From positions 1-9,861 of the forward strand of contig JAISHZ010000109.1 of assembly GCA_031262285.1 (NCBI GenBank): a stretch of 9,861 bases of DNA. The letters are read 5' to 3'. Numbering within the stretch: position 1 is the stretch's first letter; every line of letters begins with the position of its first letter. Made by a program: the position numbers and the translations under genes. The notes beneath the pieces are model-generated. The model saw only the letters and a list, made by a program, of their open reading frames with translations. It was not told the DNA's origin and ran no database searches. Positions 586 to 9,825 of this stretch are shown here, in pieces. The DNA comes from Lachnospiraceae bacterium (GTDB lineage: Bacteria > Bacillota_A > Clostridia > Lachnospirales > Lachnospiraceae).

Positions 586-1359
586 ATGGAAACTTTATTA
601 GAGATCAATCATATGAAAAAATCATTCGCGGGACAGAATGTTTTAAAAGACATTTCGTTACGCGTCACAAAAGGAGAAGTCGTATCTGTTATCGGACCAT
701 CCGGATCGGGTAAATCTACGTTGTTGCGTTGTGCGACACTCTTAGAGAAAATGGACGGCGGGGAATTGCGTTACTTAGACAGGCAAGCAGTAATAGAAAA
801 GTCGGATCATAAAGGTCACTCCTTTTGTGTCTATCCAAAAGGTGAGGAATTACAAAAGATCAAACGTACTTTCGGCCTTGTGTTTCAAAATTTTAATTTG
901 TTCCCGCATTTTAGTGTGATGAAAAACATCATCGATGCATTAATTCACGTCGATAAGATTTCGAAAGAAGAAGCGCATAATCGAGGTTTGGCTCTTTTGG
1001 CGCAACTTGGCTTAGAAGACAAGGCAAATCAATACCCTTGTCAACTTTCGGGCGGACAGCAGCAGAGAGTGTCCATCGCCAGAGCACTCGCATTGCGACC
1101 GCAGATCCTATTCTTTGATGAACCAACATCCGCGCTAGATCCGGAGCTTACCGTCGAAGTGCTAAAAGTAATGAAAGAGTTGGCCAAGGAGCATATGACG
1201 ATGATCATCGTAACCCATGAAATGCAATTTGCCAAGGAAGTCTCCGACCGCATCTACTTCATGGAACAGGGAATGATACAAGCGCAAGGAAGCCCGGAAG
1301 AAATCTTCTCTTCTAATCATACTCGTGTTCGTGAATTTATTGGGAAGATGCATGGGTGA
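586..1359 (+). CDS. Polar amino acid ABC transporter ATP-binding protein
   Basis: This is the cytoplasmic ATPase subunit that powers the importer whose permease gene lies upstream. It has 257 residues, usual for the GlnQ/HisP family. Visible motifs are Walker A GPSGSGKST (37-45), Q-loop Gln101 in VFQNFNLFPH, signature LSGGQQQR (from 154), Walker B ending LFFDE with Asp178 and catalytic Glu179, a D-loop SALDPE, and switch His211. All catalytic residues are intact. The stretch between Walker A and the Q-loop is longer than in GlnQ (about residues 60-90, including DHKGHSFCVYPKGEEL), an insertion also seen in some clostridial members. The ATG is preceded by AGGGTGGAG at 572-580 with 5-nt spacing, a strong ribosome binding site. 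Amino acid specificity cannot be told from the ATPase. The family call is very confident; the substrate is unknown. Confidence 0.93.
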   Translation: METLLEINHMKKSFAGQNVLKDISLRVTKGEVVSVIGPSGSGKSTLLRCATLLEKMDGGELRYLDRQAVIEKSDHKGHSFCVYPKGEELQKIKRTFGLVFQNFNLFPHFSVMKNIIDALIHVDKISKEEAHNRGLALLAQLGLEDKANQYPCQLSGGQQQRVSIARALALRPQILFFDEPTSALDPELTVEVLKVMKELAKEHMTMIIVTHEMQFAKEVSDRIYFMEQGMIQAQGSPEEIFSSNHTRVREFIGKMHG

Positions 1360-1512
1360 GGGATGATGAAGAAATTGTGTTTTCCATAGAAACAAGATGT
1401 TGAGAGCTTCTTACACAGAAGTTCGCTCCATCATCCGGTTTGATATGTCGTGTGAACAGACAAATGATTACAATTCAAACGTTCACCTATCTACTTTCAA
1501 AGTCATTGTTTC

Positions 1513-1530
1513 CCGGACGAACCGCACAGA
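1513..1530 (+). repeat. 18-nt block, inverted copy at 5509-5526
   Basis: CCGGACGAACCGCACAGA here is the exact reverse complement of 5509-5526, which forms the outer right edge of the GGGGACAG palindrome. The match stops where the palindrome proper would continue (GTAGGGGACAG is absent here). This copy is therefore a solitary end fragment of the element, or a piece of a genomic repeat into which the other copy inserted. Confidence 0.7.
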
Positions 1531-1542
1531 TAAACGCTAAAC

Positions 1543-1557
1543 GTAGATCGGCGAACG
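1543..1557 (+). repeat. 15-nt block, direct copy at 5546-5560
   Basis: GTAGATCGGCGAACG is repeated exactly, in the same orientation, at 5546-5560. Both copies lie a short distance beyond a copy of the 18-nt block (12 nt at the left site, 19 nt at the right), but the 18-nt blocks face opposite ways at the two sites. The pairing points to a dispersed intergenic repeat family or a rearrangement around the cassette. Confidence 0.65.
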
Positions 1558-1653
1558 ATTGAAAAGTAACGATAAACGAGATCATTATATGCAAGAAAAA
1601 TGGAAAAAGAGCAATAAATGACAGATGAAATCATAAAAAATCGATAAAGTATA

Positions 1654-1682
1654 TTGAAAACATTAATTTTATATGGTAAAAT
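1654..1682 (+). promoter_or_regulatory. Strong vegetative promoter of the PRTase cassette
   Basis: The -35 hexamer TTGAAA (1654-1659) and the -10 hexamer TAAAAT (1677-1682) each match the sigma-A consensus at 5 of 6 positions. They are 17 bp apart, and TGG directly upstream gives an extended -10 (TGn). The expected transcription start is about 1688-1690, which leaves a leader of roughly 340 nt before the first gene. This is the best promoter in the window and suggests the leader is well transcribed. Confidence 0.72.
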
Positions 1683-1686
1683 ACGA

Positions 1687-2010
1687 ACGCTCTACTGATG
1701 GTTATTATGACAGTATTTATTAAAACACATACAGCAGAGCGTGTATAGAAAGCACAATTCCCCGAAGCTTCTTAATGAACACTTCGGAGTGTATTATGTA
1801 AATTTTGTTACGTAAAAATCTGAATCTGAATTATTGTTTTGGTGAGAGTTAGAGTAAGACTAACTCAAAAGAGAAATAGACTGCTTTTATGTTAGAACAG
1901 ATAAAACAAAGAGGCTTGATAACAAATTTCATTAGTATTAGATAGAGCAATTTCAAATTTTCTTATCGTGTAGACACAATAGACAAAGTACGCGAATAGG
2001 AATATAGAAG
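1687..2010 (+). ncRNA. Long structured leader, possible non-coding RNA
   Basis: The gene-free stretch between the promoter and the first cassette gene holds three hairpins. The first pairs 1687-1697 with 1732-1742 (ACGCTCT, an A-C mismatch, then CTG/CAG) and starts almost exactly at the predicted transcription start. The second pairs CCGAAG 1762-1767 with CTTCGG 1782-1787, with CAC/GTG able to extend it after a bulge. The third is a perfect 7-bp stem, GAGTTAG 1846-1852 with CTAACTC 1860-1866, around a 7-nt loop. None has a T tract, so they do not look like terminators. The RNA could be a regulatory leader, a separately processed RNA partner of the encoded proteins, or merely an untranslated region. 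I match it to no known riboswitch or T-box. The end point is arbitrary. Confidence 0.35.
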
Positions 2011-2031
2011 GGGACAGCGATGTTACCTTGA
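2006..2031 (+). promoter_or_regulatory. RBS with three-codon minicistron overlapping a TTG start
   Basis: AGAAGGGG (2006-2013) is a good Shine-Dalgarno sequence, but it sits 6 nt from an ATG at 2020 that opens only ATG-TTA-CCT-TGA. It lies 14 nt from the in-frame TTG at 2028. The stop of the minicistron overlaps the TTG as TTGA, the arrangement of stop-start translational coupling. Ribosomes may start at 2020, stop, and restart at 2028, which would keep expression of the large gene low. Alternatively the TTG is used directly with a loose spacer. Confidence 0.45.
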
Positions 2032-4040
2032 ACGAAAAACATGTCAACAACAACATCGTCGTAATGAAGCCAATGGAGACTCTTATGCCTACAGAGAAAA
2101 TGCTTAATACAAATCAAGAAAAGCGGATCGCAATGTTACAATCTGTTTTGGGGTGTGATCTATATCAAAGACTCTACTATGTTTTCACATTATTCAGAAA
2201 AGATAAGAATTACACTCACAAATTGTTGATGTCGCGCAAGTGCTTTTCCCTTTATAAGGCATTCGATCCAATATTAAACAATGATGGCTGTGAAATAGAA
2301 GGAACCATAACAAATGATAAGATGATTGGAGTATCCGGTATAACTAAAAGCTCGCAAGTGCTTGTGTTTGATGATACTGTGTTGTACGGACGAACCATCA
2401 TGACTTTTATCGAAACGCTTTTAAAAACATATCAGATTCCGATGTCAAACATATCAGTTTCTTCAGTTTTTGCATCGAGTGATCGATTACAAAATAATGA
2501 TATGAAATATCCTTATTTCACAAATGAATGGGAGATGTTCTTCTGCTTTGGAGAGATTAAAATAAACGTTTGGAAAGAAAGTCGAATTACTTTTTTGTCG
2601 ACTGAATCTGTGAGAGGGAATTCAGCAATTTTTTTGGATGCCATTCATTCTGTTTCTGCACCATATGTAGCGTATATACCGGCATTCGAAATCACGAAAG
2701 AGGAAGCAAAAGAAGCTATTCGTGAATCTCAAAAGAGTAGAACTGCATTTACCGATACGATCGATTTTCATTCTAGACAAGAGGAAGCTATGCTACCGGT
2801 TAAATGTGATTATCAGTTTTTTTTGTCCAATGAATTGAGCGAAAAGGTATCGGAACGGATTTATTCGTATATAAGGATATATGATAATCCTAATTTGGAT
2901 ATGCTGACTGTCATACCGCATATTATTTTCCCTATAGTCGAGGAGTGTGGTACAGATGAGTTACCGGGATTTGATATATATAATAAACAGTTTCCTAAAA
3001 CATCTAGGGAAGGTACAAATGATGCAGATCTCATGACAAGAGTAACTTTTCTTCGATTTGCATCCAGTTATTTATTAGGAAAGGAATTTTTCAAAAAGTT
3101 TAACATTAAAACAGGAGACTATCAATTACTAAACGAAGAAGGATACGGAAAAGAGGAATTTATAAACGGATTCAATAAGTTGGATCTATCTGTATTTAAT
3201 TTCTTTCAAGATGAAAAAACATTTCGGCTTTTAGAAGAGATACCTAAAAGTTATCAATTTAATTTAGATAATAGTACGAACGATGTTTTCGTATCAATTT
3301 TTAATACCAATAATTTATCGGTAGAGAGTGTGAATAGAATTAGCGATTCCTCTAGAAAAGCTGCAATTTTTGATACGCTTTCTAAATATTTTTATCGAAC
3401 TTTGATTGAAAATCGCGAAGCTAATCGCTTACCCGGAACTTGCTTGAATAGCATCATCAGTAAGTTCAAATGTGTAAAACCGTTAGAACTATTGCCTGCG
3501 ATGATTCGGATAGGAGAAATGGGACGCGCAAACATCAATACCTTTGTTCATCAAAAGAAGTTGGCGATATGTATTATGCAAGACGGAGAGCAAGCAGCTC
3601 AAGTCGCGAACGAATTTTGTGTAGGATTTACTTACGCTCTTTCAACAATTTACGAAACGCTCAAAAAACCTCATGGATTCGCCGCACAACCTGAACTATT
3701 ATCATCCGATAAAAACCTATGGGAAGAAAATAAGGATATTTTAAAGGTCTTATTATATCAACTTGTGAGTCAATATCGAGAAAAAGAAAACGCTTTTGCG
3801 ATCGATAAAAATGATATAGATATTATTATAGATTCAGATGATCCTTCGCAATGGCATTCGGATATTGTTCGCTATTATGTTCCTGCGAACTCGGAAATAG
3901 CCGAATTCATGGTTGATTTTGCATTCGCTTTTATTGATTGGGTAAGAAGAGAGGACTTAAGTGCTCCTATCATTACATTTTTGCCAGAGCAAAGTCAAAA
4001 CTATCTCGAAAGGAAAAACATCAATTTACGATCAGTTTGA
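2028..4040 (+). CDS. Phosphoribosyltransferase-domain protein, candidate conflict-system component
   Basis: This 670-residue protein has no signal peptide or membrane segment, so it is probably cytosolic. Near the N-terminus, VLVFDDTVLYGRT (residues 111-123) matches the PRPP-binding motif of type I phosphoribosyltransferases: a hydrophobic strand, two acidic residues (Asp115, Asp116), then Thr and GRT for the phosphate. The surrounding region (about 30-235) fits a single PRTase fold. The remaining 430 or so residues match no family I know. They include conserved-looking MGRAN (498-502) and QDGEQ (518-522) and an acidic stretch IDIIIDSDDP. The length far exceeds purine or pyrimidine salvage PRTases (about 170-230 residues), so a housekeeping salvage role is unlikely. 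PRTase-fold proteins are known among bacterial conflict systems, including some retron-associated effectors, but no reverse transcriptase is present here. The TTG at 2028 is the only standard start codon between the upstream in-frame stop (1980) and Met13 at 2064. The gene is AT-rich compared with the exporter genes, which suggests transfer. The PRTase motif is seen; the defence role is inferred. Confidence 0.72.
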   Translation: MNEKHVNNNIVVMKPMETLMPTEKMLNTNQEKRIAMLQSVLGCDLYQRLYYVFTLFRKDKNYTHKLLMSRKCFSLYKAFDPILNNDGCEIEGTITNDKMIGVSGITKSSQVLVFDDTVLYGRTIMTFIETLLKTYQIPMSNISVSSVFASSDRLQNNDMKYPYFTNEWEMFFCFGEIKINVWKESRITFLSTESVRGNSAIFLDAIHSVSAPYVAYIPAFEITKEEAKEAIRESQKSRTAFTDTIDFHSRQEEAMLPVKCDYQFFLSNELSEKVSERIYSYIRIYDNPNLDMLTVIPHIIFPIVEECGTDELPGFDIYNKQFPKTSREGTNDADLMTRVTFLRFASSYLLGKEFFKKFNIKTGDYQLLNEEGYGKEEFINGFNKLDLSVFNFFQDEKTFRLLEEIPKSYQFNLDNSTNDVFVSIFNTNNLSVESVNRISDSSRKAAIFDTLSKYFYRTLIENREANRLPGTCLNSIISKFKCVKPLELLPAMIRIGEMGRANINTFVHQKKLAICIMQDGEQAAQVANEFCVGFTYALSTIYETLKKPHGFAAQPELLSSDKNLWEENKDILKVLLYQLVSQYREKENAFAIDKNDIDIIIDSDDPSQWHSDIVRYYVPANSEIAEFMVDFAFAFIDWVRREDLSAPIITFLPEQSQNYLERKNINLRSV

Positions 4041-4060
4041 TTGAGAGGGAGAGTTTTGTG

Positions 4061-5146
4061 ATGCTTACTGCACAAGAGAGAGAGTATTTGCAATACTCAC
4101 ATATTGCATTGAGAATGTATAAAGAAGTATTGTATGGACCGGGTTCGGACGGATATGGGCGGGTATGTACAGATGATCTTGAAGACACCAAATCCTGTTT
4201 GAAGGGTTATGATTTATACTATTTCTTGATTTTGTTTCATGATTGGTACCAAGGAAAACCCGATAAATTGACGAATCCTTTACAGAGATTCGAATTTGAC
4301 GCACACGGTTTTTTTGATATTCGTGGAGATGATTCGATAGAAACTGCCGGATTGAGACCTTATAAGTTCCATTTAGGTAATGTGGGAACGAAGGGTACAT
4401 ATATTTTTGATTCAGACAAAAGGATATTTTTTTGTATTAATGATCAAACAGTTATAGGTCAAAAATATTGTGGAGGAGTGTATACATCGAAGGAAGAATA
4501 TAATAGTTTCTTTGTCAGTAAAAAAGAACAAGATGATCATGGAAAGTTGTGTGAAAAAATCAACATTATATTCCAAGCTATTCTAAGCGGTGCAGACGAA
4601 ATACGGAAGTATGTTTTATCGAGTTCTAATATGGATGAAACAAATCAAAAAATAATTCTTGATCATCGGCTGTTTTTGGCTTTATCTTATCTGAATCCTT
4701 TTTTGTTCCGCTCATGGGTAAGAAGCTCTTTGTGTTATCTTTTGGAACATTTCAAAGAAGATAATATGACGGAAAACCCAGAATCAAGAACTGTTATGCA
4801 ATTGAATGAAAATCATACATTTCTCGCGAAATCAAAAAGACTAAGAGTAGTATCAGCGTTTTACTATGATCATCACGATATTTTTGAATTAGTATGGGAT
4901 AAAATCGATCAACTTTCAAGAAAGATACGAGATAATCAAGTATTGCAATATCATCCCACAATGACAACTAAATATGAAGATGATTGTCAAAGAGACGCAA
5001 CAAAAGATTTAGTAGAATATTTCTACAAAGCAAGAGCCTGTCATAATGCTATTGAAGATGATAAAAACAAATTTAGAACACTTTATGATTTAGAAAAAAC
5101 GATGCCTTTATATAGACAAATAGCCAAACAAATTAACCAACATTAA
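4061..5146 (+). CDS. Hypothetical protein, partner of the PRTase-domain protein
   Basis: I do not recognise this 361-residue protein. It has no signal peptide and no clear membrane span, although LYYFLILFHDWY (about residues 52-63) is strongly hydrophobic. It is rich in aromatic and charged residues. The N-terminal half looks mixed alpha/beta and contains HGFFDIRGDD, GLRPYKFHLGNVGTKGTYIFD and FFCINDQT. The C-terminal half (about 165-361) looks helical, with FYYDHHDIFELVWDKI and a charged end. The gene starts 20 nt after the PRTase gene stops, so the two are one transcript and probably work together. I chose the ATG at 4061 because GAGAGGGAGAG (4043-4053) lies 7 nt upstream; the GTG at 4058 is an alternative. 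A start at 3938 would overlap the upstream gene by about 100 nt and has no good ribosome binding site. The gene is AT-rich like its neighbour. Immunity factor, effector or sensor are all possible. Confidence 0.8.
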   Translation: MLTAQEREYLQYSHIALRMYKEVLYGPGSDGYGRVCTDDLEDTKSCLKGYDLYYFLILFHDWYQGKPDKLTNPLQRFEFDAHGFFDIRGDDSIETAGLRPYKFHLGNVGTKGTYIFDSDKRIFFCINDQTVIGQKYCGGVYTSKEEYNSFFVSKKEQDDHGKLCEKINIIFQAILSGADEIRKYVLSSSNMDETNQKIILDHRLFLALSYLNPFLFRSWVRSSLCYLLEHFKEDNMTENPESRTVMQLNENHTFLAKSKRLRVVSAFYYDHHDIFELVWDKIDQLSRKIRDNQVLQYHPTMTTKYEDDCQRDATKDLVEYFYKARACHNAIEDDKNKFRTLYDLEKTMPLYRQIAKQINQH

Positions 5147-5160
5147 AAATAGTTAAACAA

Positions 5161-5213
5161 AACAGTAGTACATCCATTATCAGAGAGCGGAGGTATTACT
5201 GTTCCTTTATTTC
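5161..5213 (+). terminator. Likely rho-independent terminator of the cassette
   Basis: An inverted repeat of 15-nt arms (5161-5175 and 5189-5203) pairs at 13 positions, plus one G-U pair, around a 13-nt loop. The arm starts AACAGTA and the return ends TACTGTT. A T-rich tail, CCTTTATTTC, follows. It begins 14 nt after the stop codon of the second cassette gene. The T tract is broken, so strength is uncertain, but position and shape fit. Confidence 0.55.
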
Positions 5214-5230
5214 TGAAACAAGACGTTATT

Positions 5231-5359
5231 ATTCACGCGCAATGTCATTAATTGAAAGATTTTCTGCATTACTAAGACTGAAAGAAAGCTTATTTTTAAA
5301 CGCTTTGCATAGTTGACATTTGTTTCAGAAGTCTTTCAGTTATGACATTGATTCACGCG
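5231..5359. mobile_element. 111-bp MITE-like element with 9-bp target duplication
   Basis: The element spans 5240-5350. Its left end (5240-5266) and right end (5326-5350) are imperfect terminal inverted repeats: read inward both begin CAATGTCAT, then reach a shared TGAAAGA and then TTCTG. I count 23 matches over 25 right-end positions with two single-base gaps. The 9-bp sequence ATTCACGCG occurs at 5231-5239 and again at 5351-5359, directly abutting both ends, as expected of a target-site duplication. There is no coding capacity inside (59 bp between the ends), so it must have been mobilised in trans. The parent insertion sequence is not in the window; a 9-bp duplication narrows the family, but I do not assign one. 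Confidence 0.72.
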
Positions 5360-5398
5360 TTAGTCGCACTTCGTTTATAGCTTAACGATGCACAGGAA

Positions 5399-5516
5399 CG
5401 CACAGAGTAGGGGACAGTTTTGGGTGTTATACGTTCTGTGGAGATGGAGACCATGTTCTGGGCTCATCGGAACGCCCAGAGAGTCTAACACCAAAAACTG
5501 TCCCCTACTCTGTGCG
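5399..5516. repeat. Long palindromic GGGGACAG repeat, REP/RAYT-like
   Basis: Arms of 31 nt (5399-5429 and 5486-5516) are inverted copies with a single mismatch, and both contain CACAGAGTAGGGGACAG. With a 1-nt gap the pairing extends outward to GAA/TTC (5396 and 5520). The interior has a further 7-bp hairpin, TCTGGGC 5457-5463 with GCCCAGA 5474-5480. Palindromes carrying GGGGACAG-type ends are dispersed in many bacterial genomes, and in several lineages they are linked to REP-associated Y1 transposases (RAYT). None is encoded here, so this would be a non-autonomous copy. Family membership is inference; the palindrome is plain in the sequence. Confidence 0.7.
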
Positions 5517-5526
5517 GTTCGTCCGG
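5509..5526 (-). repeat. 18-nt block, inverted copy of 1513-1530
   Basis: This block begins inside the right arm of the palindrome (CTCTGTGCG) and continues 10 bp into its outer flank. It is the exact reverse complement of 1513-1530 on the other side of the cassette. Because the left copy lacks the palindrome core, the conserved unit is the end of the element plus its flank, not the palindrome itself. Confidence 0.68.
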
Positions 5527-5545
5527 TATACACTGCCTTTCAAAT

Positions 5546-5560
5546 GTAGATCGGCGAACG
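5546..5560 (+). repeat. 15-nt block, direct copy of 1543-1557
   Basis: GTAGATCGGCGAACG matches 1543-1557 exactly and in the same direction. It lies 19 bp beyond the 18-nt block and upstream of the exporter promoter. Confidence 0.65.
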
Positions 5561-5598
5561 CATAAATAGTATTTACGAATTAACACCATAATCCGTTC

Positions 5599-5697: not shown

Positions 5698-7437
5698 ATG
5701 AAGCGCTACTGGAAATATATCAAACCATATCTTCCATACTTTATCATAGGACCGATCATGATGATTATAGAAGTCCTAGGGGAAGTACTCTTACCCAAAA
5801 TGATGGCGAATATCGCCAACAACGGTGTCGCAGCGGGCGATATCCCTTACATCATACAAACCGGCGCACAAATGATCGGATTAGCCTTGTGTATGCTTTT
5901 AGGAGGGGTAGGCGGTGCATACTTCGGATCCAAAGCGTCCGTTAATTTTGCCGCAGATCTGCGAGCAGATGTGTTTGCAAAGGTACAACAATTCTCTTTC
6001 TCCAATATCGACCACTTCAGCACCGGCTCATTGGTGACGCGACTGACCAACGACGTAACCCAAATGCAAAATCTCGTCATGATGTCACTACGCATTATGC
6101 TGCGAGCGCCAGGAATGTTGATTGGCGCGATTATCATGGCTTTTCTCATGAATGCACAATTAGCGACAGTTCTACTCATCGTGATGCCCATTCTTATTGT
6201 CGTAATCATCCTGGTCATGCGCGCCGCTTTTCCGCGCTTCCAACGGATGCAGCAGAAATTGGATCATTTAAACTCAACCGTTCAAGAAGCTTTGACCAAT
6301 GTACGCGTGATCAAATCCTTTGTGCGAGAAGATTTCGAAAAAGATCGATTTGGGCAAGCCAATGAAGATCTCAAAGACAACGCGTTAAAAGCATTTCGCG
6401 TAGTGATTATGAATATGCCCCTTATGATGCTTGCTATGAACGGAACTACTCTGGCGATCGTATGGTTTGGCGGCAATCAGATCTTGGATAATACCATGGC
6501 AATCGGAGATTTGTCTGCGTTTATTACCTATATCGTACAAGTCCTCATGTCGCTGATGATGGTAGCGTTTGTACTACTGCAGGTATCGCGAGCACTTGCC
6601 TCTTCAAAGCGTATTCGTGAAGTGTTAGACACGATAGTGGATATCGATGACACCAATGCCACCCAAAAGGATCAAATCGTCACGAAAGGGGAAATCGAAT
6701 TTCGCGATGTTTCTTTTCGATATTACAAAGATACGCAAGAATGGGTGCTTGATCATATATCGCTACGCATTGAACCCGGTTCTACGGTGGGGATCATCGG
6801 CTCTACCGGCTGTGGGAAGACGAGCTTGGTGCAGATGATTCCGCGTCTTTATGACGTTGACCAAGGAGAGGTTCTGGTCGATGGAGTGAATGTAAAAGAC
6901 TATTCGCTCAATCATTTGAGGGATCGCGTGGGTATGGTATTACAGAAAAATGTTCTGTTTTCCGGAACCATTCAAGAGAATCTGGAATGGGGAAAAGAAG
7001 ACGCTACCTTGGAGGAAATACGCGAAGAAGCACGCAAAGCACAAGCAGATCCGTTTATCGTTTCCTTTACCAATGGGTATGATACCGAGTTGGGACAAGG
7101 CGGTGTGAATGTCTCCGGCGGGCAAAAACAGAGACTCTGTATCGCCAGAGCATTATTAAAAAATCCAAAGATCTTGATCTTAGACGACTCGACAAGTGCG
7201 GTGGACACCGCCACAGAAGCGAAGATTCGAGAAGAACTTGCAACCTCCTTTGCCAAGACCACCACAATCGTGATCGCGCAGCGAATATCCTCAGTGATCG
7301 ACGCGGATAAAATTGTCGTGATGGACGAAGGCAAAATCGTTGGAGAGGGACAACATGATCAGCTGCTCAAGACCTGTGAAACCTATCAAGAAATTTACTA
7401 TTCTCAGATGGATAAAGAAGAGGAGGTATCTGCGTAA
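5698..7437 (+). CDS. Heterodimeric ABC exporter, degenerate-NBD half (YheI/BmrC-like)
   Basis: This 579-residue half-transporter has a six-helix membrane domain (about 10-300) followed by a nucleotide-binding domain. Walker A is GSTGCGKTS (368-376) and the signature is NVSGGQKQR (from 471). Walker B is LILDD: Asp496 is normal, but residue 497 is Asp where the catalytic Glu should be. The switch histidine is Gln528 in VIAQRIS. These two changes mark the degenerate-site subunit of heterodimeric exporters such as BmrC of BmrCD and TM287 of TM287/288. The next gene encodes the complementary half and overlaps by 1 nt. Family members export drugs or other amphipathic compounds; the substrate here is unknown. 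The ATG at 5698 follows AGGAGA (5682-5687) at 10 nt. The subunit assignment is confident; drug export as the true role is inferred. Confidence 0.93.
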   Translation: MKRYWKYIKPYLPYFIIGPIMMIIEVLGEVLLPKMMANIANNGVAAGDIPYIIQTGAQMIGLALCMLLGGVGGAYFGSKASVNFAADLRADVFAKVQQFSFSNIDHFSTGSLVTRLTNDVTQMQNLVMMSLRIMLRAPGMLIGAIIMAFLMNAQLATVLLIVMPILIVVIILVMRAAFPRFQRMQQKLDHLNSTVQEALTNVRVIKSFVREDFEKDRFGQANEDLKDNALKAFRVVIMNMPLMMLAMNGTTLAIVWFGGNQILDNTMAIGDLSAFITYIVQVLMSLMMVAFVLLQVSRALASSKRIREVLDTIVDIDDTNATQKDQIVTKGEIEFRDVSFRYYKDTQEWVLDHISLRIEPGSTVGIIGSTGCGKTSLVQMIPRLYDVDQGEVLVDGVNVKDYSLNHLRDRVGMVLQKNVLFSGTIQENLEWGKEDATLEEIREEARKAQADPFIVSFTNGYDTELGQGGVNVSGGQKQRLCIARALLKNPKILILDDSTSAVDTATEAKIREELATSFAKTTTIVIAQRISSVIDADKIVVMDEGKIVGEGQHDQLLKTCETYQEIYYSQMDKEEEVSA

Positions 7438-7439
7438 TG
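7421..7439 (+). promoter_or_regulatory. RBS inside upstream gene with TAATG stop-start overlap
   Basis: AGGAGGT (7421-7427) lies within the last codons of the first exporter gene, 9 nt before the ATG at 7437. The TAA stop of that gene shares its last A with the ATG. The arrangement supports coupled translation and equal amounts of the two subunits. Confidence 0.8.
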
Positions 7440-9305
7440 AATGAGATGCGTGCAGAAAGACTCCGCAAAAAATACGCGCTGCGGCAAGATATGAAACTGC
7501 AGCATAGAGGTCCAGGTGGACCGGGTCCTAGAGGTCCCAGAGGTATGATGCCGGGAGCTAAACCACAGAATGTCAAGAAATCACTGGGACGTCTGTGGGG
7601 ATATTTATCACAAGATGCATGGAAATTGGTAATCGTTTTCCTTTGTGTGATCATTTCGACCGTGAGTATGTTGGCAGCTTCCTATCTGTTACGACCGGTT
7701 ATCAATGACTTGATGGCAGGAGCGGGAGCAGGCGCATTGCTACGCGGGATCATAACCATGGCAGTGATTTACCTGTTTGGAATGGTCGCGCAATACTTCC
7801 AACAGCTGATTATGATCGGTGTGGCGCAAAAAGCACTGTTACAACTGCGCAATGATCTGTTTGCGAGTATTCAGAAGTTGCCGCTTAGGTTCTTTGACAC
7901 GAACAATCATGGCGATATTATGAGCCGTTTTACCAATGATGTGGACGCTGTCGGAGAGATGATGAACGGCACGGTAGTTCAGCTGATCTCAGCGACGATC
8001 AATATTGTAGGTACGTTGATTTTGATGATTTATACCAATCTGATCTTGACTGCCATTACGATTTTGATGGTGCCGCTTATGATGTTAGGAGCGCAAGGGG
8101 TAGCGAAACGCAGCCGCAAATTTTACAAAGGACAACAGGCTGCACTTGGTACATTGAACGGTTTTATGGAAGAAACAGTTACCGGGCAAAAGGTAGTGAA
8201 AGTATTCTGCCATGAGGAAACCGCGAAAGAAGAATTTGATTTTTTGAACAAAGATCTTCGAGAAAAACAAGTCAAAGCGCAATTTTTCGGTGGATTAATG
8301 GGTCCTGTGGTAGGGAATATCAGCCAGATCGGTTATGCGCTCACCGCAACGATCGGCGGGATTTTGTGTGTGACAAATGGGTTTGACTTTGGCGGACTTA
8401 CGATCTTCTTGGGCTACTCCAGACAATTTTCTCGCCCGCTCAATGAACTATCCATGCAGGTCAATACGATCTTTTCAGCCTTGGCAGGTGCTGAGCGAGT
8501 GTTTGATGTAATGGATCGTGATCCGGAACCAATTGACGCCCCGGATGCGATTCCTCTGGAACAAAAAGAAGTGACCGGAGCAGTCACCTTGAATCATGTA
8601 ACATTTGGCTATGATCCGGATAAAGTGATCTTGTCGGATGTCTCCCTGTACGCGAAGCCGGGACAAAAGATAGCCTTGGTGGGTTCTACGGGAGCAGGTA
8701 AAACGACGATTACCAATTTGATTACTCGTTTTTATGATATCGCGCAAGGAGAGATCACGATCGATGGTACGGATATTCGTAACATTCGCAGAGGGGATCT
8801 GCGCAAAAATATCGCGATCGTTTTACAGGATACCCATCTGTTTACAGGAACCGTCAAGGAAAACATTCGTTACGGAAGGTTGGACGCGACGGACGCCGAA
8901 GTGGAAAAGGCTGCGCGGACAGCCAGTGCACATTCGTTTATCATGAGATTAGAACATGGATATGATACCTTAATAGAGGGAGATGGCGCCAATTTAAGCC
9001 AAGGGCAGAGACAGCTTCTGAATATCGCAAGAGCTGCTATTTCGACCGCACCGATTCTGATCTTGGATGAAGCTACCAGCTCGGTAGATACGAGAACAGA
9101 GAAACATATCGAGCGAGGGATGGATCGTTTGATGGAAAGCAGAACGACGTTGGTCATCGCACATCGTCTTTCAACGGTACGCAATGCCAACGCCATCATC
9201 GTCTTGGAACATGGAGAAGTCATGGAACGAGGCAGCCACGAGGAGCTTTTGGCGGCAAAAGGGCGTTATTACAGTCTTTATACCGGGTTAGCACAACTCG
9301 ATTAG
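7437..9305 (+). CDS. Heterodimeric ABC exporter, catalytic half (YheH/BmrD-like)
   Basis: This 622-residue half-transporter partners with the preceding gene product in the cell membrane. After a cytoplasmic N-terminal extension come six membrane helices (about 62-350) and the NBD. Walker A is GSTGAGKTT (416-424), and Walker B LILDEATS has Asp544 and catalytic Glu545. Switch His576 (VIAHRLSTV) is intact. The signature is NLSQGQRQ (519-526), with Gln in place of the first Gly of LSGGQ. This is expected: the signature serves the degenerate site of the first subunit, while the catalytic site uses this Walker A/B with the NVSGGQ of the partner. The N-terminal extension carries basic residues and a Gly-Pro-Arg-rich run (residues 25-36). 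Length is slightly above the usual 580-600 because of this extension. No terminator is obvious; the convergent flavin reductase gene ends 16 bp away. Confidence 0.94.
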   Translation: MNEMRAERLRKKYALRQDMKLQHRGPGGPGPRGPRGMMPGAKPQNVKKSLGRLWGYLSQDAWKLVIVFLCVIISTVSMLAASYLLRPVINDLMAGAGAGALLRGIITMAVIYLFGMVAQYFQQLIMIGVAQKALLQLRNDLFASIQKLPLRFFDTNNHGDIMSRFTNDVDAVGEMMNGTVVQLISATINIVGTLILMIYTNLILTAITILMVPLMMLGAQGVAKRSRKFYKGQQAALGTLNGFMEETVTGQKVVKVFCHEETAKEEFDFLNKDLREKQVKAQFFGGLMGPVVGNISQIGYALTATIGGILCVTNGFDFGGLTIFLGYSRQFSRPLNELSMQVNTIFSALAGAERVFDVMDRDPEPIDAPDAIPLEQKEVTGAVTLNHVTFGYDPDKVILSDVSLYAKPGQKIALVGSTGAGKTTITNLITRFYDIAQGEITIDGTDIRNIRRGDLRKNIAIVLQDTHLFTGTVKENIRYGRLDATDAEVEKAARTASAHSFIMRLEHGYDTLIEGDGANLSQGQRQLLNIARAAISTAPILILDEATSSVDTRTEKHIERGMDRLMESRTTLVIAHRLSTVRNANAIIVLEHGEVMERGSHEELLAAKGRYYSLYTGLAQLD

Positions 9306-9321: not shown

Positions 9322-9825
9322 TCAGCGTACCAGTACTTTTTGAATTTCACAAATGTAGAGGGTATGGAAATCATCCTCGGGATACATTTCTTTCGCGAGA
9401 CCGGGTACCAAAAAGTCTTCTGCGCGGTATTCAGACGCATATAATTTTTTGGCAATCAATATCGTTTCGGCTTCTTCAAAGTAGGGTGTAGCGCCGTCAA
9501 AAGCGACGTGAAGCCCTGCTTTTGCAATTTTGTCCTCGTCTCTGCCGGAAGCGGTTCCTAAGTAGGTAAGTTCTTGCCGTAATTGCGGTGAGAAAAAGGT
9601 TAAGGACATCGTATCTTGTGCGTCCACAAATTCTTTGGTATATCGTTGGGGACGAATGACGACGAATGCAACGGGTTTTCCCCACATTTCTCCGAGTCCG
9701 CCCCATGAAGCAGTCATGGTATTGACTTGGTCGGGTGTCCCGGCGGTTACGAGCATCCAATCTCTTCCGATTAGTTTACATGCTCCTTCGTGTAGGTCAT
9801 AGGGGCTGATTTCTTGATAACTCAT
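9322..9825 (-). CDS. Flavin reductase family protein (FMN-binding split barrel)
   Basis: This 167-residue protein belongs to the flavin reductase-like FMN-binding family, cytosolic proteins that bind FMN in a split beta-barrel and often pass electrons from NAD(P)H or another donor to flavin or a partner enzyme. The N-terminal half has the family pattern: GRDWMLVTAG, then NTMTASWGGLGEMWGKPVAFVVIRPQRYTKEF (two pieces, TASWGG and IRPQRYT being the most typical), then MSLTFF. The length is normal. The ATG at 9825 (reading leftwards) follows AAGGAGGG (9833-9840) at 7 nt, an excellent ribosome binding site. The gene converges on the exporter genes and is not part of their operon. The promoter lies beyond the right edge. 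The natural substrate cannot be told from sequence. Confidence 0.92.
   Translation of the reverse strand: MSYQEISPYDLHEGACKLIGRDWMLVTAGTPDQVNTMTASWGGLGEMWGKPVAFVVIRPQRYTKEFVDAQDTMSLTFFSPQLRQELTYLGTASGRDEDKIAKAGLHVAFDGATPYFEEAETILIAKKLYASEYRAEDFLVPGLAKEMYPEDDFHTLYICEIQKVLVR

Follow-up and report, generated by a model that had tools for sequence, protein, structure and literature searches.

Phosphoribosyltransferase (PRTase) domains are found in several bacterial conflict systems, and a two-gene cassette on contig JAISHZ010000109.1 of a Lachnospiraceae bacterium, analyzed here over 9,861 nucleotides (the window, to which all positions refer), may represent a further one. Published reports describe related systems as follows. 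RqlHI comprises a long protein with a PRTase domain and a counteracting partner gene; RqlH is reported to be genotoxic, and its toxicity maps to the PRTase domain and is absent with the pocket substitution D663A (PMC4670107). A pair of DprA and a PRTase gives E. coli protection against T7 and lambda, the PRTase being suggested as the effector; how retron PRTases act is described there as unknown (PMC9122126). Type III retrons carry a PRTase together with DNA-binding or winged-helix genes (PMC12548924), and a PRTase is named in a figure legend of the DefensePredictor report (PMC13092281). The premise of the initial annotation of this locus, that PRTases occur in conflict systems, is therefore documented by RqlH (PMC4670107) and by the DprA–PRTase pair (PMC9122126).

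The cassette consists of gene 1, which encodes a long PRTase-type protein, and gene 2, which encodes its putative partner; their coordinates and those of all other features are collected in Table 1. Both genes are real, as their frames are open far beyond chance and relatives exist: in random sequence of gene 1 composition, stop-free runs of 670 and 361 codons are expected with probabilities of ~5e-24 and ~3e-13, respectively. When 5.8 billion proteins were searched with a word-based method, gene 1, queried both as a sequence and as an alignment, returned the same three rows each time, namely itself, P0002 (73% identity) and P0003 (33%); gene 2 returned itself and P0005 (46% identity, covering 83% of the query). 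P0002 and P0005 each lie on a contig 15,572 bases long and are therefore very probably neighbours; the contig of P0003 comprises 4,163 bases. The co-occurrence of homologues raised in the initial annotation is thus very probable in one relative, where genes 1 and 2 would travel together as a pair. The identity of aligned residues to P0002 and P0005 is 74% for gene 1 and 49% for gene 2, respectively, so that gene 2 evolves faster; sensors and antitoxins often change fast. No relative was found in genome_contigs or viral_contigs (protein scans), in plasmids and phages (tblastn) or in the PDB (by sequence), in scans that proceed by short exact patterns or words, which distant relatives can escape. 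A profile scan of nine phage and plasmid records also gave no relative, an empty answer that is uninformative there.

The 670-residue frame of gene 1 that had been annotated initially was recovered, but its start is uncertain. The called proteins of P0002 and P0003 begin at alignment residue 13, corresponding to ATG 2064 here, and the database copy of gene 1 begins at residue 20 (651 amino acids); the TTG 2028 start is therefore doubtful, and ATG 2064 is the likelier one. A three-codon frame (ATG TTA CCT TGA, 2020–2031) with a purine-rich stretch upstream overlaps TTG 2028, and is possibly a leader or a sign of a misplaced start.

In the Type I PRTase superfamily, the motif hhhhDDxxxxGxT binds phosphoribosyl pyrophosphate (PRPP). 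Gene 1 conforms to it with the variant VLVFDDTVLYGRT, found exactly at residues 111–123 as initially annotated, and L112, V113, D115, D116, T117, L119, G121, R122 and T123 are identical in all three known sequences. A profile of 12 pooled PRTases aligned with residues 91–169 of gene 1 with a probability of 90% and a score of 43.6; the best of 100 column shuffles scored 18.7, and the decoys scored 21.7 and 22.9 for ABC ATPases (the latter a Walker-B decoy, from which the one of seven ABC sequences lacking the pattern was excluded) and 17.2 for DprA. When each of the 12 pooled PRTases was left out in turn, the score stayed at 34.2–46.7. The pool was derived from 16 loci, comprising 15 of the 17 in one listing (L016 and L020 were untried) and L024, which is the same gene as L020; four of them (L012, L014, L018 and L022) lacked the motif and were excluded. 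At the level of sequence, the presence of a PRTase-type domain at residues ~91–169 of gene 1 is supported by this comparison, by UPRTase matches of gene 1 and P0002 that stay below the cut-off (P0003 has none) and, loosely, by the non-significant purine PRTase rows of the Foldseek listing. It is followed by ~440 residues without assignment, in which a winged-helix-like segment is possible.

The cassette is probably foreign, that is, horizontally acquired. Its guanine and cytosine (GC) content by windows is 0.31–0.37, compared with 0.41–0.48 in the neighbouring genes, and third-position GC is 0.31 in gene 1 and 0.26 in gene 2 versus 0.45–0.50 in four flanking genes. Non-coding repeats bound it on both sides: 1495–1530 is inverted with respect to 5509–5544 (86% complementary), and 5542–5571 is a direct copy of 1539–1568 (83%). 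An A+T-rich cassette bounded by non-coding repeats is as expected of acquired DNA. Two further structures lie on the downstream side. The 118-nucleotide stretch 5399–5516 is a near-perfect palindrome (40-nucleotide arms, 90% complementary, −73 kcal/mol, z −11.6) resembling a small non-coding mobile or REP-type element; viral contigs contained no exact copy of a 20-nucleotide piece of it, and plasmids gave no match to 5380–5580. A second long inverted repeat (5240–5350, z −5.0), just downstream of the cassette, may be a non-coding element or a terminator acting in both directions.

Judged by these sequence comparisons, the cassette fits no catalogued family tested. With ShosTA and the DprA–PRTase pairs it shares the two-gene arrangement and a weakly recognizable PRTase domain with a DD…G motif. 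However, the partner in those systems is DprA, which gene 2 does not resemble (0.1% against a nine-sequence DprA profile; no Pfam match), and ShosT-type proteins have 201–478 amino acids compared with 658–670 for gene 1. Nine DprA neighbourhoods were fetched for this comparison, six of which gave a PRTase comparator, while L039 (RecQ helicase, edge-cut), L040 and L041 did not; the six ShosT-type pairs came from phages and a plasmid. The ShosT profile of PADLOC matched all six DprA-neighbour proteins, one of them weakly (E 0.0007), and matched neither gene 1 nor its relatives nor trimmed segments. Membership among the DprA pairs was rejected, as gene 2 shows no likeness to DprA. In one of the loci, the Pseudomonas filamentous phage PfAC02a (L038:818-4657), ShosT, ShosA, KwaB and KwaA are annotated side by side.

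In RqlH, a RecQ-like helicase carries the PRTase domain at its C terminus, whereas gene 1 has no helicase match and has its motif close to the N-terminal end. Retron type III-A combines PRTase and winged-helix effectors, and gene 1 has a possible winged helix; three of four overlapping trimmed segments of gene 1 weakly matched the PADLOC retron profile PRTase_III-A with E 0.011–0.014. However, such a retron needs a reverse transcriptase beside the effector, and none was present among the seven window proteins scanned, so that retron membership was rejected within the span of the window, which appears to be an entire contig, since the database places its protein on one of 9,861 bases. A PtuA match of one trimmed segment (E 0.029) was taken as chance. 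By profile score, gene 1 is nearest to PurR, PyrR and uracil PRTases, which are short proteins of common metabolism, whereas gene 1 has ~650–670 residues and is very rare (two relatives). The motif of one member of the pool, L011, which we take to be PyrR, is VLVDDVLYTGRT and is close to VLVFDDTVLYGRT.

The explanation that we favour, tentatively and at somewhat less than an even chance of being right, is that the cassette is an acquired two-gene conflict module with gene 1 as a PRTase-type effector and gene 2 as its partner. By analogy with the documented PRTase conflict systems, gene 1 would most likely act as effector in a system of the anti-phage or toxin type, and gene 2, probably co-transcribed with it, would most likely sense the trigger or restrain gene 1. 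Upon triggering, the PRPP-binding site of gene 1 would act on a nucleotide or nucleic acid, and as a result the cell would be harmed or the invader blocked. We infer in this way the enzymatic activity of gene 1, the roles of effector and partner and the function in defence. To our knowledge, the reaction of PRTase-type conflict effectors has not been established. The defence or toxin-type module proposed in the initial annotation is plausible and unproven, with the foreign origin, the pairing and the PRTase-type profile in its favour. The stronger claim that the module is a new one, with a long PRTase-type effector, an extra and perhaps DNA-binding region, and a partner unlike DprA, helicases and reverse transcriptases, is somewhat less probable still.

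A number of observations in this and the following paragraphs weigh against a conflict module. The pairing rests on one relative (P0002/P0005), relatives are too few to permit a co-occurrence test with defence genes and no recognizable defence gene was found among the seven window proteins scanned. The PRTase pool was picked and centred by the motif, which therefore favours motif matches, and the profile signal vanishes once the motif of gene 1 is masked, so that the domain call leans on ~17 residues. A Tyr precedes the motif glycine in gene 1, a position occupied by T, S, A or G in ten of the 12 PRTases in the pool. The structure model of gene 1 is poor (mean pLDDT, predicted local distance difference test, of 41) and yielded no significant fold match; the top Foldseek rows were peptidylarginine deiminases, which are not PRTases, while purine PRTases made up 39 of the 50 rows listed, all with E ≥ 0.29. 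The low rank of PRTases for gene 1 in VIA-align is not counted as evidence against. The structure prediction foreseen in the initial annotation was thus too poor to settle the fold for gene 1 or for gene 2 (pLDDT 49, with no significant fold match, likewise not counted against); the PRTase domain claimed there stands as far as the profile comparison carries it, and the PRTase fold of gene 1 is what we infer from that comparison. The two counter-findings named in the initial annotation, homologues as conserved single genes of metabolic operons and a structure lacking the PRTase fold, were not encountered, in an analysis that covered the sequences of the relatives but not their gene neighbourhoods.

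The effect of masking and the deiminase rows would also be expected if the motif were a matter of chance or convergence in some other alpha/beta fold and the pair did something else. P0003, which has no UPRTase match, points the same way; gene 1 gave 16.6 bits with this family at full length and 19.3 when trimmed, and P0002 gave 17.3, below the cut-off of 27. Neither gene 1 nor its relatives reached the Pfam gathering cut-off for PF14681 or PF00156, the latter of which was also missed by five of the six ShosT-type comparators. PRTase-CE (PF24390) matched none of gene 1, P0002, P0003 and the trimmed segments, in searches in which weak matches may be lost to the HMMER filters, and it left the six ShosT-type comparators likewise unmatched. 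However, the shuffles and the ABC and DprA decoys scored far lower than the real profile, and the insignificant alignments that are left with the motif masked, or with residues 126–230 alone, stay in the PRTase register. We consider a chance motif improbable.

A second set of observations bears on the kind of PRTase. Against the six ShosT-type proteins gene 1 scored 27.6 (18%), below the metabolic PRTases, and this, together with the likeness of the L011 motif, makes a ligand-sensing regulator the main alternative. Gene 1 would then combine a PRTase-type ligand domain with a DNA-binding winged helix and sense PRPP or a nucleotide in the manner of Gram-positive PurR, gene 2 being a target or co-factor. 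However, the extreme rarity of the family and its low-GC island are at odds with such a regulator, no nucleotide gene was present among the seven scanned proteins and the winged-helix lead comes from a part of the model with pLDDT 24–46. On balance, a regulator appears unlikely.

The weak retron PRTase_III-A matches of the trimmed segments, the repeats on both flanks and the lack of a reverse transcriptase would also suit a fragment or a decayed remnant of a larger mobile-element or retron-type system, carried as functionless cargo. For the conflict module these matches count in favour, whereas the lack of a PRTase_III-A match in the fourth segment, in the full-length protein and in P0002 and P0003 counts against it. 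Nevertheless, both frames are intact, and the gene 1 relatives at 33% and 73% identity retain the full length and the motif, which indicates selection; decay is thus as improbable to us as a chance motif.

The signals around the cassette were also examined. The promoter-like site and the terminator-like hairpin of the initial annotation exist, but sites of both types are about as frequent in shuffled sequence: the window contains 31 promoter-like sites (26.1 ± 4.8 in shuffles) and eight terminator-like ones (7.2 ± 3.0), counts that are no better than chance. The hairpin, better drawn at 5161–5203, is stronger than the site scan showed, the 96 nucleotides of 5130–5225 out-folding 198 of 200 shuffles (z −2.7). 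The long leader is present, with structure only slightly above that of shuffles; its sub-stretch 1689–1760, chosen among several, folds well (z −3.1, 1/200 shuffles as good). An RNA element in the leader was considered and rejected, as no Rfam family matched it at the gathering score.

Gene 2 was confirmed as the orphan that the initial annotation had described, 20 nucleotides downstream of gene 1 on the same strand, with a GAGAGGGAGAG stretch preceding its ATG. It matched no family in Pfam, PADLOC and NCBIfam (each at E up to 1) or in PHROGs (E up to 5), and genes 1 and 2 showed no kinship (0.1%).

The flanks of the cassette are ordinary transporter genes. Among the matches listed for the exporter at 5698–7437, the best plasmid-borne relatives are ~50% identical and from Bacillota. 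A search of the window for transfer RNAs found none, and an Rfam scan of it gave no family reaching the gathering score; the sole match, a small nucleolar RNA inside gene 1 (E 0.46), was taken as chance.

Table 1. Features of the cassette and its surroundings (positions in the window).
Feature	Position	Strand	Remarks
ABC (ATP-binding cassette) permease (3' end) and ABC ATPase	3-446, 586-1359		left of cassette
Left non-coding repeat block	1495-1568		
Promoter-like site	1654-1682	+	TTGAAA-17-TAAAAT, extended -10; site scan
Leader	1689-2027	+	339 nucleotides, weakly structured; z -2.0, 3/100 shuffles as good
Gene 1, PRTase-type protein	2028-4040	+	670 amino acids from TTG 2028; 658 from ATG 2064
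Stretch aligned with pooled PRTase profile	2298-2534	+	gene 1 residues ~91-169
Variant PRPP-binding motif	2358-2396	+	VLVFDDTVLYGRT; gene 1 residues 111-123
Possible winged-helix-like segment	3345-3575	+	gene 1 residues ~440-516; weak lead
Gene 2, putative partner	4061-5146	+	361 amino acids; predicted mostly helical (low confidence)
Terminator-like hairpin, then CCTTTATTT	5161-5203	+	11-bp outer stem, 3-bp inner stem
Right non-coding repeat block	5509-5571		
Two ABC exporter genes	5698-7437, 7437-9305		right of cassette
Flavin-reductase-like gene	9322-9825		opposite strand to cassette

Should the cassette turn out to be ordinary, it would amount to an accessory pair of genes that is very rare and of little broader significance. 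If it is a conflict module, it would provide a PRTase effector without DprA or a reverse transcriptase, so that the domain could be assayed independently of them, and PRTase domains would be paired with sensors more widely than has been recorded.
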